Positions 1 to 21,189 of a stretch of DNA of 64,000 nucleotides are shown piece by piece. Source of the stretch: Bartonella sp. AU18XJBT (GTDB lineage: Bacteria > Pseudomonadota > Alphaproteobacteria > Rhizobiales > Rhizobiaceae); the NCBI RefSeq assembly GCF_028618595.1, contig NZ_JAQITE010000008.1:1-64000 (forward strand), given 5' to 3'. Every line of letters starts with the position of its first letter. The first letter of the stretch is position 1. Below the pieces are notes generated by a model. The model was not told the origin of the DNA. It was given only the letters and a program-made list of their open reading frames with translations, and made no database searches. A program made the translations under genes and the position numbers.

Positions 1-2
1 CG

Positions 3-158
3 TTGCTGCTTCAAGGGTTCCGTGGACAAATCAATGGACCATGGAAAGCTTCTACCGTCACCCACTGCTATGAAAAGCAAAGCGGATATACCACAGAAAT
101 TACACTTGAAGCACCAGACAAGGGAAACAAAACAGGAGAAAAGGAAACCTCTGAGTGA
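3..158 (+). CDS. Phage late control gene D-type tail protein, C-terminal end only
   Basis: An open frame enters from the left edge and stops at TGA 156-158, giving 51 residues. The stretch GPWKASTVTHCYEKQSGYTT followed by EITLEAP resembles the C-terminus of the P2 gpD / late control D family, a VgrG/Pvc8-like hub protein of contractile phage tails, where a W-x-a-x-x-V-x-H...GYTT-x-i-x-LE pattern closes the protein. This frame fits better than the overlapping frame from 22 to 414, whose product is low complexity and is produced by the palindromes downstream. Most of the gene lies outside the window, so I cannot say whether it is intact. It implies a prophage or prophage remnant ending just before tRNA-Gly. 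The family call rests on remembered motif shape. Confidence 0.6.
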   Translation: MLLQGFRGQINGPWKASTVTHCYEKQSGYTTEITLEAPDKGNKTGEKETSE

Positions 159-164
159 CAGAAA

Positions 165-547
165 ATCAAAGGGTCAACTTGATCCTTTGATCGGTGTTGA
201 TGAATATTTAGAGCAATTGGTGCAAGTTGATCCAATTGCTAAAAGGAGCAATGGTGCAAACATTGCACAATTGCAGACTGAAGAAAAAATGGGTCAAGTT
301 GATCCTATTTTTGAAACAAGCAGAGCAACTTCAGATCACAATGAAATTTTATGTGAAGGAAATGGAAGATCAAAAGTGCAACCTGTTCCTTTGATCGGTT
401 GTAATGCTTTCTGAGATCGACGTGCAGTGTTTGCACTTTGGGTGGGAGAGAGCAATGGGGACAACTTGTCCCTATTCCTTAAAGGTGCAATAGGATCAAG
501 TTGATCCAATTGCATGAGTTCAGCAATAGGGTAATGTTTACCCAATT
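165..547. repeat. Degenerate tandem array of about nine palindromes, about 36-bp period
   Basis: A row of short imperfect palindromes sits immediately after the phage gene. Stems: 165-191 (13 pairs, one G-T), 212-240 (9-bp outer stem), 248-274, 285-312, 368-396, 422-436, 454-476, 486-514 (13 pairs, one mismatch) and 525-547. Centres lie near 178, 226, 261, 298, 382, 429, 465, 500 and 536, so neighbours are mostly 35-37 bp apart, with one gap (298 to 382) that could hide a lost unit. Several units share an outer GCAAT/ATTGC stem, while the inner arm differs (GGATCAA, GGGACAA, GGGTAA, GGTGCAA) and its partner arm changes to match. The array is translated partly on both strands as a recurring QxDPI peptide, a consequence of the symmetry. 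No CRISPR-like constant repeat is present. Confidence 0.75.
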
Positions 548-878
548 CCTCAAAGCTTCTTTTGTTTTAATAATGCCTCAGAAAACTGAAAAGCTATCAC
601 TCACTTTATGTTAAAAGAGAAGAGATACCTTTTTATGCATGCTGCTTCTCAAATAATGCGATTGTAATACGATTCTGGCAAAAGAACTGATCATTAAAAA
701 TCATAATTTTTAGGAGAAAAAAAAGAAATTCATTAAAGAGGTTTTAAATGATCTTTGAAAGACCTTTGAAGCCCCTTTGAGAACACCTTAAAATCATGTA
801 AAAAAAATAAACTGCTACAAAACCTAGTGGCAAAATATACAAAACCCACTGGCAAGCTACAATAAATACAAAACTCAA
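548..878. other. AT-rich spacer between palindrome array and tRNA-Gly
   Basis: No open frame, RNA or clear repeat is visible. It separates the phage remnant from the tRNA gene and could contain the tRNA terminator or a worn-out attachment site, but I see no direct repeat of the tRNA 3' end here. Confidence 0.5.
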
Positions 879-953
879 TGGAGCGGGCGATGGGATTCGA
901 ACCCACGACCCCAACCTTGGCAAGGTTGTGCTCTACCCCTGAGCTACACCCGC
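879..953 (-). tRNA. tRNA-Gly (anticodon GCC)
   Basis: On the minus strand a 75-nt tRNA folds normally: acceptor GCGGGTG pairs with CGCCCGC, the D arm is GCTCAGGGGTAGAGC, the anticodon stem-loop CAACCTTGCCAAGGTTG carries GCC, and the T arm is GTGGGTTCGAATCCCAT. The terminal CCA is encoded (TGG at 879-881 on the plus strand). It reads GGC/GGU glycine codons. Its neighbour on the 3' side is phage-derived DNA, which fits the common use of tRNA genes as integration targets. Confidence 0.95.
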
Positions 954-1138
954 TGACCGATTCGATATATATCTTGCTTGTATGGCGTAGGCTGCTACGA
1001 ATTGCAACAAAAAAATATCACTTTAGTTTGATTTATTCTGTCCATGTTTTAATAAAATGAAATAAAGATTGATTTTATAAGATTCTTCAGTAATAGATTA
1101 TTCCTTTTTTAATTTTGCATAGAGAGGGGTGGAGTATA

Positions 1139-2116
1139 ATGTTGAAGAGAATAAATATATTAGGGATTATCATTGCAGCTGTTTTTATGATGAATAGTGT
1201 TGCAAAAGCGGATGACCAAGTTAAACACATTAAAGTTGCACTCACACAAATAATGATTCATCCTGCTGCGGATGCTGTTCGTAAAGGTGTGGAAGATGTT
1301 CTTGCAGAAAATGGTTATAAGCAAGGTGAAAATTTTCAACTTACTTTTTTATCAGCACAGGGCAATATTTCAACAGCAACGCAAATTGCACGTAAATTTG
1401 TTGGTGATAAACCTGATGTTATTGTAGCGATTACCACGCCTTCAGCACAAACAATGCTTGCGGCAACAAAAACAATACCTATCGTCTTTGCGGCGATTTC
1501 TGATCCTATCGGAGCTAAAATCGTTTCTTCGCTTACCAAACCTGGCGGTAATATGACGGGGAGTTCTGATCGTATAGATGTTGCAGAAAGTATTAAGCTT
1601 TTACAAGAAGTAAAACCAGATTTGAAAAAAATTGGTTATCTCTATAATGCTTCTGAAGCAAATTCTGTTTCAACACTTAAGGTGTTAAAAGATGCGGCAA
1701 AAAAAGTTGGAATTGAAATCATTCCTTCTTCAGCACCAAAACCTTCAGATGTTCAGGCAGCAACACGGGCTTTAATCGGTAAAGTAGATATCATTTTTAT
1801 TCCCGCTGATAATACGGTTCTTTCTGTTTTAGAGGGTGCAGTAAAGGTCTCACAGGAAGCAAATGTTCCTGTATTTACTGTTGATGCTAATTCTATTGGG
1901 CGCGGTCCCTTTATGACGCAAGGTGTGAATTTCTATGATGTAGGGGCTGATGCTGGGAAGTTGGTTGTGCGTATTCTAAAGGGTGAAAAGCCTGGTGATA
2001 TTGATGTTGTGCAGGCGGCTAATAATGACATTCGAATTGATATGAAAGCAGCAGAAAAAGCGGGGATTGTTATTCCGCAGGCAGTTATTGATCGTGCGAC
2101 AAAAGTGATACGATAA
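1139..2116 (+). CDS. ABC transporter substrate-binding protein (TrpX-like, ABC_sub_bind family)
   Basis: A 325-residue periplasmic binding protein. The N-terminus MLKRINILGIIIAAVFMM followed by SVAKADD is a typical signal peptide with cleavage after AKA. The body has the two-lobe pattern of the PF04392 family: HIKVALTQIMIHPAADAVRKG near the start, a QGNISTATQIARKF segment, and a PIVFAAISDPIGA segment. ATG 1139 is chosen over the earlier TTG at 1115 because it gives a clean signal peptide and has GAGAGGGGTGGAG just upstream. It is followed by a permease and an ATPase on the same strand, forming an import operon. Related systems carry aromatic amino acids or other small molecules; the ligand cannot be read from the sequence. 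Confidence 0.88.
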   Translation: MLKRINILGIIIAAVFMMNSVAKADDQVKHIKVALTQIMIHPAADAVRKGVEDVLAENGYKQGENFQLTFLSAQGNISTATQIARKFVGDKPDVIVAITTPSAQTMLAATKTIPIVFAAISDPIGAKIVSSLTKPGGNMTGSSDRIDVAESIKLLQEVKPDLKKIGYLYNASEANSVSTLKVLKDAAKKVGIEIIPSSAPKPSDVQAATRALIGKVDIIFIPADNTVLSVLEGAVKVSQEANVPVFTVDANSIGRGPFMTQGVNFYDVGADAGKLVVRILKGEKPGDIDVVQAANNDIRIDMKAAEKAGIVIPQAVIDRATKVIR

Positions 2117-2178
2117 CTTTCATTGATAGGATATTGATACAATAAAATACGTTAAGTTTTCATGGGGATTGTCGTTAC

Positions 2179-3075
2179 ATGAATATATTTGCGTTTTCTG
2201 GCGCTGTGGAATTAGGTCTTATTTATGCGTTTGTGGCTATAGGGGTTTATCTCTCTTTTCGTGTTTTGGACTTTCCTGATTTAACAGTTGATGGCTCATT
2301 TCTTCTTGGGTCTTGTGTCTGTGGTGTCTTGATTCTTTTAGGTTTTAATGCATGGGCAGCTATGGCATGTGCTTTTTGTGCAGGCATGGTAGCTGGTTTA
2401 TTAACAGCTATGTTGAATTTGCGTTTTGGTATTTTGAATCTTTTGGCTTCCATTTTAACAATGTCAGCACTCTATACGGTTAATCTTCGTATTATGGGAA
2501 TTATGGGAGGATCTAATGTTAATTTAGCGCTTGCTGATACGGCGTTAACGCCCTTTTATAATCTGTTTGGTTTGTCTGATATTTTTGTGCGTCCTCTTTT
2601 CATTGGTACTGTATTGCTGGTTATGGTGTTTTTGATTTGGCGCTTTTTGGAAAGTGAAATTGGTCTTGCTATGCGTGCAATGGGAGCTAATCCACGCATG
2701 GCGACGGCGCAAGGGGTCCATACGTCGGCGTTAATTTATTTTGGTATGGGGCTTTCAAATGCCTGTGTTGCACTTGGTGGTTCTCTTTATATTCAAACTG
2801 CGATCGCAACGGATATTACCGGTGGAATTGGAACAATTGTTTTTGGGTTAGCAGCTGTGATTATCGGTGAAACTCTCTTTCGTACGCGCAATATTTTTTG
2901 GATTATAATCAGCTGTATTGTGGGATCTGTACTTTATCGTGTGGCGGTACAATCTGCATTTGAAGCAAATGGAATTGGTATTGATACGTCGACAGATCTT
3001 CAGTTGATTACTTCACTGTTGGTTATTTTAACCCTTATTGTGCCACGCTATTGGAGGAGGCGTAAACGTGATTGA
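2179..3075 (+). CDS. ABC transporter permease (TrpY-like, BPD_transp_2 family)
   Basis: A 298-residue very hydrophobic protein with about eight membrane segments. The motif VLDFPDLTVDGSFLLGS near residue 30 is characteristic of the permeases that pair with PF04392 binding proteins, and the cytoplasmic AMRAMGANPRMATAQGVHTS loop is the EAA-like contact with the ATPase. The ATG start at 2179 lies 62 bp after the binding-protein gene. Its last 8 bases overlap the start of the ATPase gene, so the two are probably translationally coupled. Length is normal for the family. The protein acts in the inner membrane as the transport channel. Confidence 0.88.
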   Translation: MNIFAFSGAVELGLIYAFVAIGVYLSFRVLDFPDLTVDGSFLLGSCVCGVLILLGFNAWAAMACAFCAGMVAGLLTAMLNLRFGILNLLASILTMSALYTVNLRIMGIMGGSNVNLALADTALTPFYNLFGLSDIFVRPLFIGTVLLVMVFLIWRFLESEIGLAMRAMGANPRMATAQGVHTSALIYFGMGLSNACVALGGSLYIQTAIATDITGGIGTIVFGLAAVIIGETLFRTRNIFWIIISCIVGSVLYRVAVQSAFEANGIGIDTSTDLQLITSLLVILTLIVPRYWRRRKRD

Positions 3076-3862
3076 GTTTTCTCATGTTGGGGTTACATTT
3101 AAACCGCAAACACCTTTGGAAAAACAGGCTTTGATTGATATTAACCTTAAAATTGATCAGGGTAGTTTTGTTACGGTTATCGGTTCAAATGGCGCTGGTA
3201 AATCAACCTTGCTCAGTGTTTTAGCGGGTGCAACGCTTCCCTCAACAGGGAAAGTGGTTATCAATGGGCAAAATGTTTCTAGGCAATTAGTTAGTGAACG
3301 CGCTGGAAAGGTTGCTTGTGTTTTTCAAGATTCTTTAGAGGGAAGTTGTGGCTCTTTAACAATTGAAGAAAATTTGGCTCTTGCTGCTCTTCGAGGAAGT
3401 CGTCGTGGTTTGCGTTCGGCTTTAAACCATGAGAAACGGCAATTTTTTCGAGAGAAAATTGCTCAATTAGGCATTGGTCTTGAAGCATATATTCATAATC
3501 CTATGGACAGTTTATCAGGTGGGCAACGCCAAGCTGTTTGCCTTGTGATGGCAACATTAGCTCATGCGGATGTTTTATTGCTTGATGAACATACCTCAGC
3601 GCTTGATCCTGGAATGGCTGATTTTGTGATGCGGTTGACTGAAAAAATCGTTGAAGAGAAAAAATTAACGACTATCATGGTGACTCATTCTATGCGTCAG
3701 GCTCTTGATTATGGCGATCGCACCTTGATGTTGCATGGTGGAAAAGTGATTTTGGATGTCTGTCATGAAGAGCGTAAGGGTTTGGATGTCAATGATTTAA
3801 TTGGTATGTTTCAGAAAGTTCGCGGGGAAGTTCTTGATGATGATGAACTGTTAATGGATTAA
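3068..3862 (+). CDS. ABC transporter ATP-binding protein
   Basis: A 264-residue nucleotide-binding subunit. It contains Walker A GSNGAGKSTL, Q-loop VFQDS, signature LSGGQRQAV, Walker B VLLLDEHTSALDP and switch His in VTHSM. GTG 3068 is chosen as start because GGAGGAGG lies 10 bases upstream and because IEFSHVGVTF is the usual family beginning; a longer frame from 3038 would only add residues encoded inside the permease gene. It energises the importer formed with the two preceding genes. The operon probably ends here or runs into holA, which starts 4 bases after the stop codon. Confidence 0.9.
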   Translation: MIEFSHVGVTFKPQTPLEKQALIDINLKIDQGSFVTVIGSNGAGKSTLLSVLAGATLPSTGKVVINGQNVSRQLVSERAGKVACVFQDSLEGSCGSLTIEENLALAALRGSRRGLRSALNHEKRQFFREKIAQLGIGLEAYIHNPMDSLSGGQRQAVCLVMATLAHADVLLLDEHTSALDPGMADFVMRLTEKIVEEKKLTTIMVTHSMRQALDYGDRTLMLHGGKVILDVCHEERKGLDVNDLIGMFQKVRGEVLDDDELLMD

Positions 3863-20094: not shown

Positions 20095-21189
20095 TTATGC
20101 TTTTGTTCCACGGCGTCCCATTCCGATCAAGGGCGTGGCTTTTTCATCTAATGGCCAGCGTGAGCGGGGTGCAATGTCGAGAGAGCTTGTTTCTCCTCGT
20201 ACGAGTTTTTGTGCACCGGCAAAAGCAATCATTGCAGCATTATCGGTACACAAGGAAAGAGGAGGGGCTATAAATTCAAAACCATGTTGATGGGCAAGTT
20301 CTTGCAATGTAGAGCGAATGGCTTGGTTTGCTGCAACACCGCCCGCGACAACCAAAGCAGGAGAACGCTTTCCTTGATCATGAGAGAGAGGATATTGGTG
20401 GGTAAAGTGTTGTAGGGCTAGGTAAATACGATCATGTATCGTATCGGTCACGGCTGCTTGAAAACTTGCGGCAATGTCAGCAATATCATTTTCTGTAAGA
20501 GGAGCTATGGCTGTTGCGGCTTGTCGGACAGCAGTTTTGAGTCCGGAAAAAGAAAAATCTAACCGTTTTTCACCCTTTAAAGGGCGTGGAAGGGGGATGC
20601 GATTTTTATCACCAAATAAAGCTGCTTTTTCAAGTGCTGGTCCACCAGGATAAGGAAGACCTAAAAGTTTTGCAGTTTTATCAAAGGCTTCTCCTAATGC
20701 ATCATCAATAGTGGTTCCTAAACGTTGGTAGTTGCCTACTCCATGAACAATGATTGTTTGTGTATGCCCCCCTGAAACCAAAAGTAATAAATAAGGAAAG
20801 CTGACGTTGTGCGTTAATACAGCTGTTAAAGCATGTCCCTCTAAGTGATTTACCGCAATAAATGGTTTGCCAGTGGCAAGAGAGAGTGCTTTTGCGCTCA
20901 TAACGCCTACCAACAATCCTCCTATCAAACCAGGTCCACTGGTGGCTGCAATGCCATCAATATCTTTTAATTTTGTGTTTGCTTCTGTTAGTGCTTGCAG
21001 AATTAAATGATCAAGAACTTCAACATGGGCACGAGCAGCAATTTCAGGAACAACACCGCCGTAAGGTGCATGGTGATCAATTTGGCTCCAAACAACATTG
21101 GAAAGAATTCGGCTGTTTGATTCATTGTTATATTCAATGACAGCCGCTGCCGTTTCATCACAACTTGTTTCTATTCCCAGCAGACGCAT
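20095..21189 (-). CDS. tsaD: tRNA N6-threonylcarbamoyladenosine synthase subunit TsaD
   Basis: A 364-residue ASKHA-fold protein that, with TsaB and TsaE, installs t6A37 on ANN-decoding tRNAs. It opens [17 protein letters not shown], has the metal-binding motif NHLEGHALT, the glycine loop [11 protein letters not shown], and [13 protein letters not shown] near the C-terminus. ATG 21189 is preferred to the TTG three codons earlier because MRLLGIETS is the normal start. In Rhizobiales tsaD is divergent from hemC-hemD; here the divergent side leads directly to the mitofilin-like gene. Confidence 0.95.

Follow-up and report, generated by a model that had tools for sequence, protein, structure and literature searches.

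The stretch of DNA analysed here, which we call the window, comprises 64,000 nucleotides of Bartonella sp. AU18XJBT. Its first kilobase contains the 3' end of a gene D-like phage tail gene, an array of about nine 27-nt palindromes (165-549), a pair of 22-bp repeats and a tRNA gene (Table 1). About 270 bases between the array and the repeats hold no convincing gene. The tail gene frame, ending at about position 158, agrees with the phage setting that an earlier note on this DNA had recorded.

Table 1. Features at the left edge of the window (helix classes as in Table 2)
Feature	Coordinates	Strand	Remarks
Gene D-like phage tail protein, 3' end	1..158	+	frame 3 ORF cut by contig start; phrog_52 tail protein, E 1.8e-9
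Palindrome 1	165..191	.	centre 178; GGGTCAA|C|TTGATCC; outer stem ATCAAA/TTTGAT; 12/13 pairs
Palindrome 2	213..239	.	centre 226; hybrid core GGTGCAA|G|TTGATCC; 11/13 pairs
Palindrome 3	248..274	.	centre 261; GTGCAAA|C|ATTGCAC; class of helix KRAVHYL; 11/13 pairs
Palindrome 4	285..311	.	centre 298; GGGTCAA|G|TTGATCC; 10/13 pairs
Palindrome 5	368..396	.	centre 382; core worn, outer stem GATCAAA/TTTGATC intact; found by eye; within a 79% copy of the unit-1 stretch
Palindrome 6	416..442	.	centre 429; worn; GTGCAGT|G|TTTGCAC
Palindrome 7	452..478	.	centre 465; GGGACAA|C|TTGTCCC; class of helix KSVRRL; 11/13 pairs
Palindrome 8	487..513	.	centre 500; GGATCAA|G|TTGATCC; class of helix VSVKRL; 12/13 pairs
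Palindrome 9	523..549	.	centre 536; GGGTAAT|G|TTTACCC; class of helix KESVKLL; 10/13 pairs
First 22-bp repeat of Mu-like right end	816..837	+	repeat search and end comparison
Second repeat and outer prophage right end	838..861	+	ends ...AAGCTACA (...CTACA at 861); inverted likeness to the L245 left end and to the ends of G035:C1:1294281-1331636
tRNA-Gly (GCC)	879..953	-	3' end faces the prophage end, 17 nt away

The palindromes, with arms and spacing as the earlier note described them, were recovered: centre-to-centre distances are 48, 35, 37, 84, 47, 36, 35 and 36, and positions 1-600 contain seven that reach 10 or more of 13 pairs, against 42 in the other 63.4 kb, the comparison being with the unshuffled rest of the window. 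The unit at 382 was seen by eye only and missed by palindrome scans. The arm pairs quoted in that note are present, but three inner cores are imperfectly matched, namely those at 178 and 298 (GGGTCAA versus GGATCAA) and at 226 (GGTGCAA versus GGATCAA). In addition to these three, two of the nine units (382 and 429) are worn. Four helix classes (see below) are represented with perfect arms. Frame 1 of the array translates as a ParB linker peptide (DRKSKGQLDPLIG..EQLVQVDPIAKR..); Pfam gave no match to the window frames and PHROGs nothing convincing for frame 1 (frame 3 being the tail protein). In the Rfam search of the window, the tRNA alone exceeded the threshold; a sub-threshold match to HPnc0260 at 732-917 (40 bits, cut-off 59) is probably due to chance.

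Mu-like prophage setting

The ends of the element, together with the genes of loci L245 and L033, place the window array near the right end of a Mu-like prophage, the remainder of which lies off this contig. As for the ends, an intact 37,356-bp prophage (G035:C1:1294281-1331636) begins with TGTAGTTTGACA.. and finishes with ..TGGCAAGCTACA, thus having TG...CA termini, and the right end in the window carries the 22-bp repeats, which are of the transposase-site type. As for the genes, L245 possesses transcriptional regulators, transposase A (phrog_310, E 4.6e-165), transposition protein B (phrog_296, E 7.5e-95) and, farther along, a late activator (phrog_836, E 9.2e-29). Its early region is ordered as repressor-like regulator, small regulator phrog_769 (Ner-like by its place), a 134-aa protein, the ParB-like protein, a 152-aa regulator (phrog_2345), transposase and transposition protein, and the annotated gene order of phages StopSmel and RcapMu is similar. 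In the remnant L033, the array is preceded by tape measure, tail protein and gene D genes (phrog_28, 76 and 52). Genome G035 contains two ParB-like genes and two arrays, paired 32.8 kb apart, as expected of one prophage each. A P2-like phage integrated at the tRNA with the array at its end was dropped as a candidate once the Mu-type ends and early genes were found.

When 24 array loci were scanned, 23 had a tRNA gene (Gly, Asn, Ser, Met, Gln, Lys or Thr) with its 3' end facing the array, and one (L141) had none. The phage end lies 7-44 nt from the tRNA in the ten loci compared, the window copy included. Right ends near the 3' ends of varied tRNA genes are seen in the window (816-953) and at L032-L039, L042, L046, L047, L135-L140, L142-L145, L150 and L154. 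These Mu-like phages are placed as though they preferred tRNA 3' ends; there is no tRNA gene near the intact copy in G035. The genome of the window contains at least three pieces of the same type of right end, on contigs C84, C107 and C140, which start or stop there. Farther into the window, at 1115-3862, three adjacent frames resemble an ABC transporter (binding protein, permease and ATPase), judging from their translations.

Palindromes inside ParB-like genes

A DNA search with the window array, as the earlier note had proposed for other Bartonella genomes, matched 17 of 61 genomes, all Bartonella. The units occur in two contexts: in arrays between gene D and a tRNA gene, and inside a gene for a ParB-like protein. 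A pattern with three inner pairs left free found 74 places in 29 of 71 genomes, prophage copies within one genome being counted apart, while the control read backwards found none. Full complementarity at the free pairs was kept in 67 of these 74 places (counted from the listing), so the joint change of the arms noticed in the window extends across the genus.

The ParB-like gene was detected at E 1e-20 in 30 of 71 genomes (PF02195, phrog_3264). Two of the proteins score 49.2 and 46.3 bits against the PF02195 ParB_N domain (cut-off 26.3). A structure model of L155 (mean pLDDT 77.6, pTM 0.53) shows a central helix-turn-helix, and in the PDB it is matched foremost by Noc, ParB and KorB (the last as 8qa8 and 8qa9), with a best E of 1.2e-8; similarly, a profile of the protein matches Noc and ParB chains (best E 9.1e-15). 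The linker peptide, starting near residue 131, falls in a low-confidence part of the model (residues 127-147, pLDDT below 50). No product annotated as ParA was found in two whole phage records. ParB, KorB and Noc bind palindromes by means of a helix-turn-helix, and ParB and KorB also load as CTP-controlled clamps. PMC8429893 describes the same clamp loading for Noc.

The linkers of the Bartonella genes comprise 35 distinct sequences of 123-312 nt. One is frameshifted; the other 34 continue in frame into the downstream domain, although one of them has an internal stop. Among 36 distinct linker-helix combinations, zero to five sites were counted per linker, one combination having none (L081, which has no core). 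Both filled and empty states occur in frame (GGD-RKSKGKVYPLIG-GNQYTKDK versus GGD-H-GNQYTKDK). This might be expected if the palindrome were a mobile element that disperses and inserts in frame, like REP sequences or Rickettsia palindromic elements. However, those pattern hits that were looked into, genus-wide, were either ParB-like linkers or phage right ends, and 42 of 71 genomes had no match to the first pattern. We consider such an element a very improbable source.

In the linker motif [GDV][QK][VLHI][DYAV]P, the codon pairs were GGA-GTC (21 times), GGT/GGC-GAC (10) and GAT-GAT (5), and GGT-TAC (22), GGT-TAT (2), GTG-GCA (23), GTG-GCG (1) and GGT-GCA (1). Symmetry is therefore kept by the choice among synonymous codons: Gly GGA is accompanied by Val GTC in 21 of 21 cases, while Asp is GAT after GAT (5 of 5) and GAC after GGT or GGC (10 of 10). 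This suggests that in the linker DNA rather than protein is conserved. For the earlier note, a conserved protein-coding repeat would have spoken against its reading. Such a repeat does exist in other genomes, yet the symmetry persists at synonymous positions. Of the roles that the note listed, both the protein-binding array and the worn coding repeat hold in part.

Relatives of the ParB-like protein were taken as the best 80 of 114 loci from viral contigs and the best 80 of 88 from named genomes (34 of the latter 80 being Bartonella). In Mu-like phages outside Bartonella, the ParB-like gene has a single palindrome, located at the corresponding position. Its letters differ widely while the symmetry is kept: counted outwards, pairs 2, 3, 6 and 11 are Watson-Crick in all 78 non-redundant cases, with two or three pair types each. 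The encoded peptide varies among these phages. In a first pass with 47 non-Bartonella genes, the anchors of which missed 80 loci, the best palindrome of an 810-base stretch was in the linker in 39 of 47, and palindromes with at least 11 of 13 pairs were in the linker in 29 of 29 cases, near-duplicates included. In a set of 72 genes (49 loci missed by the anchors), at least 10 pairs were present in the linker of 66 and at least 11 in that of 48, compared with 25 and 4, respectively, in the rest of the gene. Of 4320 draws under a null of random synonymous codons, 479 contained at least 10 pairs and 104 at least 11; gene by gene, a weaker test, 33 of 72 surpassed every one of the 60 null draws made for them. 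Phages POA1180 and StopSmel each have a sole strong copy, located inside parB, and POA1180 has two-mismatch matches at 20520 and 35623.

A recognition-helix code

We compared the letters of the palindromes with the recognition helix of the protein encoded by the same gene. Helix residues x2, X1 and X2 were defined by [LFIVMW][SGA]-x1-x2-x3-[VIYATSK]-X1-X2, by which 100 of 106 helices could be parsed, and 78 non-redundant gene-site pairs were retained. The base at -3 follows X2: arginine occurs with C in 50 of 50 pairs and any other residue with A in 28 of 28 (n=78). The base at -6 follows X1, i.e. K with G (36/36), E with C (15/15), Q with C (7/7), F with T (6/6), N with G (2/2) and R with G (8/9), besides the singletons V-C, Y-T and A-T. 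The base at -4 is related to x2, namely D with G (4/4), A, E, N, P or Q with T (21/21), R with C or A (38/38) and T with C (6/6), serine being mixed in nine. Mutual information amounted to 1.27 for X1/-6 (shuffle maximum 0.43) and 0.94 for X2/-3 (shuffle maximum 0.22). Further information is shared between X1 and -7 (0.92), X1 and -8 (0.68), and the S/G position and -1; part of this surplus may reflect relatedness.

The influence of descent was addressed with two quickly built trees, both made without linker and helix, of which the N-domain tree carries a warning of few columns. On the N-domain tree, X2 and -3 agreed in 10 of 10 independent pairs on supported branches (p 0.002), and E/Q at X1 agreed with C in seven of eight, the eighth being without difference; pairs for K or E alone were too few. 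On the C-terminal tree, X2 and -3 agreed in 11 of 11 independent pairs (p 0.001), K/R/N at X1 with G in 9.9 of 10, E/Q with C in 7 of 8 and R at x2 with C/A in 7.8 of 10, and none was opposite. The mismatched controls were not significant, neither on the N-domain tree (X2 versus -4, -5 and -7) nor on the C-terminal tree (X2 versus -4, X2 versus -6 and X1 versus -3). Seven outer-stem families contained both states of X2, all in agreement with the code.

Eleven distinct genes outside the 78 served as held-out cases, and the code was correct for all 11 at -3 and for 10 of 10 at -6; four of them (RcapMu, RcWaterboi, RR1-B and vB_ThpS-P1) were wholly fresh, and the other seven had been partly viewed earlier. 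They came from a pool of 18, made up of 12 loci that failed the anchors and six unparsed helices. L308, the frame of which ends after 112 aa, was dropped, and L266, L272, L274, L300, L301 and L303 were left out of the count as repeats of training genes, with which they agree by eye. The held-out letters were transcribed by hand, and the helices of L316-L318, missed by the pattern, were read by eye.

Table 2. Helix classes of Bartonella ParB-like proteins. The six classes were named post hoc, after viewing the table, and 2 of 36 helices belong to none. Array counts include L061, a parB linker cut by the phage end, which adds one each to QDVVKRL, KSVRRL and EESVRRL
Helix	Core	Core in own linker	Core with other helices	Perfect-arm class among 21 distinct arrays
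KESVKLL	GGGTAAA	8/8	11/28	16
QDVVKRL	GGTGCAA	10/11 (L053 without core)	11/25	10
KSVRRL	GGACAA	8/8	7/28	12
EESVRRL	CGGTCAA	3/3	4/33	8
VSVKRL	GGATCAA	2/2	3/34	11
KRAVHYL	GTGCAAA	2/2	4/34	14

In Bartonella, cores matching the helix of the same gene were found in nearly every linker (Table 2). If classes were formed by X1 and X2 alone, only KL was significant (GGGTAAA, p 0.0025; ATGCAAA, p 0.005, unexplained), and KR and RR were not. In a check with less bias, the code trained on non-Bartonella genes gave a mean best score of 3.37 on Bartonella cores (35 genes) versus 2.05 with shuffled helices, and none of 5000 shuffles reached the former. The core GGGTCAA has no fitting helix class among 36 Bartonella genes.

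From these comparisons, two patterns emerge. Outside Bartonella, the comparison shows a single putative site per gene, located in the linker codons before the helix-turn-helix, with a half-site that tracks three residues of the recognition helix. The Bartonella linkers are shown to carry up to five such putative sites, nearly always including one that fits the helix of their own protein, and many copies of the phage have a second, non-coding cluster at the right end. Based on the helix code, the tree controls and the held-out genes, it is very probable that the palindromes serve the ParB-like protein of Mu-like phages as parS-like sites, the window array being one right-end cluster of them; we assign this reading a probability of roughly 0.8, judging from sequence comparison.

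In the earlier note, the joint change of the arms was ascribed to selection or gene conversion that acts on the hairpin as a form and not on its sequence. Indeed, the stems are long, their complementarity is strict and the arms change together, all of which would suit a hairpin in RNA or single-stranded DNA in which the letters themselves are irrelevant. RNA stems, however, tolerate G-U pairs, whereas G-T accounts for only 6 of 81 non-Watson-Crick cells here. As the inner letters moreover follow the recognition helix, selection on form is very improbable. Since the letters follow the helix and G-T cells are few, the symmetry resembles that of a double-stranded DNA site read by a symmetric dimer, and the arms would change in step, as each half-site would contact an identical helix. 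The helix code led us to drop both the hairpin and the mobile-element readings. Perfect arms and the few core types in Bartonella could also be thought to arise from a mutational process, such as template switching or conversion between arms, that creates or repairs palindromes without selection. This would leave unexplained the fixed position in the gene, the match to the helix on two trees and the single strong copy in two phages, and we regard it as most unlikely.

Candidate function and right-end arrays

According to the parS-like reading, a dimer of the ParB-like protein would bind the palindrome, perhaps load as a CTP clamp in the manner of ParB and Noc, and organise or mark phage DNA. 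Once bound, the protein might regulate its own gene, load as a clamp by which phage DNA is marked or organised, or join the ends. Helices might be exchanged between related phages, and a site adjoining the helix codons would travel with them as a unit when phages recombine. Bartonella has accumulated several such units, within the gene as well as at the right end. By offering several specificities, such a panel could keep the element readable by any ParB-like variant present.

Several known systems are related to this arrangement. According to PMC4442127, parS-359 of Bacillus subtilis sits within the parB gene, likewise a ParB family site inside its own coding sequence. Compared with parS-359 as presented there, the phage site occupies fixed linker codons, its letters have switched with the helix many times and it is borne by transposable phages. 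PMC7383237 reports that the site bound by ParB and Noc, of two types (parS and NBS), is determined by a small number of residues contacting the DNA; the phages are alike in that few such residues set the site, and differ from the switch described there in offering dozens of natural half-sites linked to the gene itself. Unlike chromosomal ParB-parS systems, Bartonella builds tandem arrays of several specificities. KorB of plasmid RK2 is alike in the fold match. Its operators lie mostly at promoters, whereas the sole strong site of POA1180 and StopSmel is inside the gene. Rickettsia palindromic elements can occupy coding frames; these and REP are alike in being palindromic and differ in that no dispersal was seen among the hits looked into here.

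In the part of PMC5488378 available to us, vB_ThpS-P1 and vB_PeaS-P1 have a ParB homologue upstream of transposase A, Mu is without such a protein, and no DNA site for the homologues of Mu-like phages is reported. RcapMu is alike, by annotation, in having the homologue upstream of transposase A, and we found the palindrome in the ParB-like genes of both RcapMu and vB_ThpS-P1. Searches of open-licence PMC papers brought up none that we recognised as reporting a palindrome inside phage parB-like genes, a joint change of site and helix, or arrays like those of Bartonella. For alphaproteobacterial Mu-like phages, the ParB-like gene gains a candidate cis site and hence a testable role. Dozens of natural protein-site pairs of one fold, each linked in one gene, likewise yield a testable three-residue recognition code, and a binding site appears to be maintained within coding DNA through the codons of a disordered linker.

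With such tandem panels in Bartonella, one may ask whether a phage maintains docking sites for the proteins of other phages. The right-end arrays might be working panels for the ParB-like proteins of relatives, of six classes, serving to borrow or titrate them or allowing recognition as 'self' by the clamp of a co-resident phage; if so, marking could steer transposition or superinfection among competing phages. We consider such panels rather unlikely. A somewhat better case, still short of an even chance, can be made for the array being a relic, in which linker DNA of the parB-like gene recombined to the phage end and is now functionless while the sites within genes are real. Frame 1 of the window array reads as the linker peptide, some of its units are worn, the intact prophage in G035 has no right-end array, and on contig C107 of the window's genome the array has collapsed to about one fused unit (by eye). 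Phages POA1180 and StopSmel, with their sole strong copy in parB, likewise speak against a need for such arrays. On the other hand, at least one helix class with perfect arms was present in 19 of 21 right-end arrays, with a class order alike across species (by eye), and arrays are also present in five genomes (G028, G034, G063, G068 and G080) that yielded no ParB-like gene at E 1e-20. A linker contains at most four of the six classes, while the array L250 contains all six with perfect arms; L091 and L144 contain none. The last of these is presumed to belong to a prophage of helix KRAVHYL, and its site of that class is worn. In the window's own genome, the ParB-like piece (L079 and L106, on contig C96) is rearranged, one linker unit and the helix-turn-helix following foreign frames with stops.
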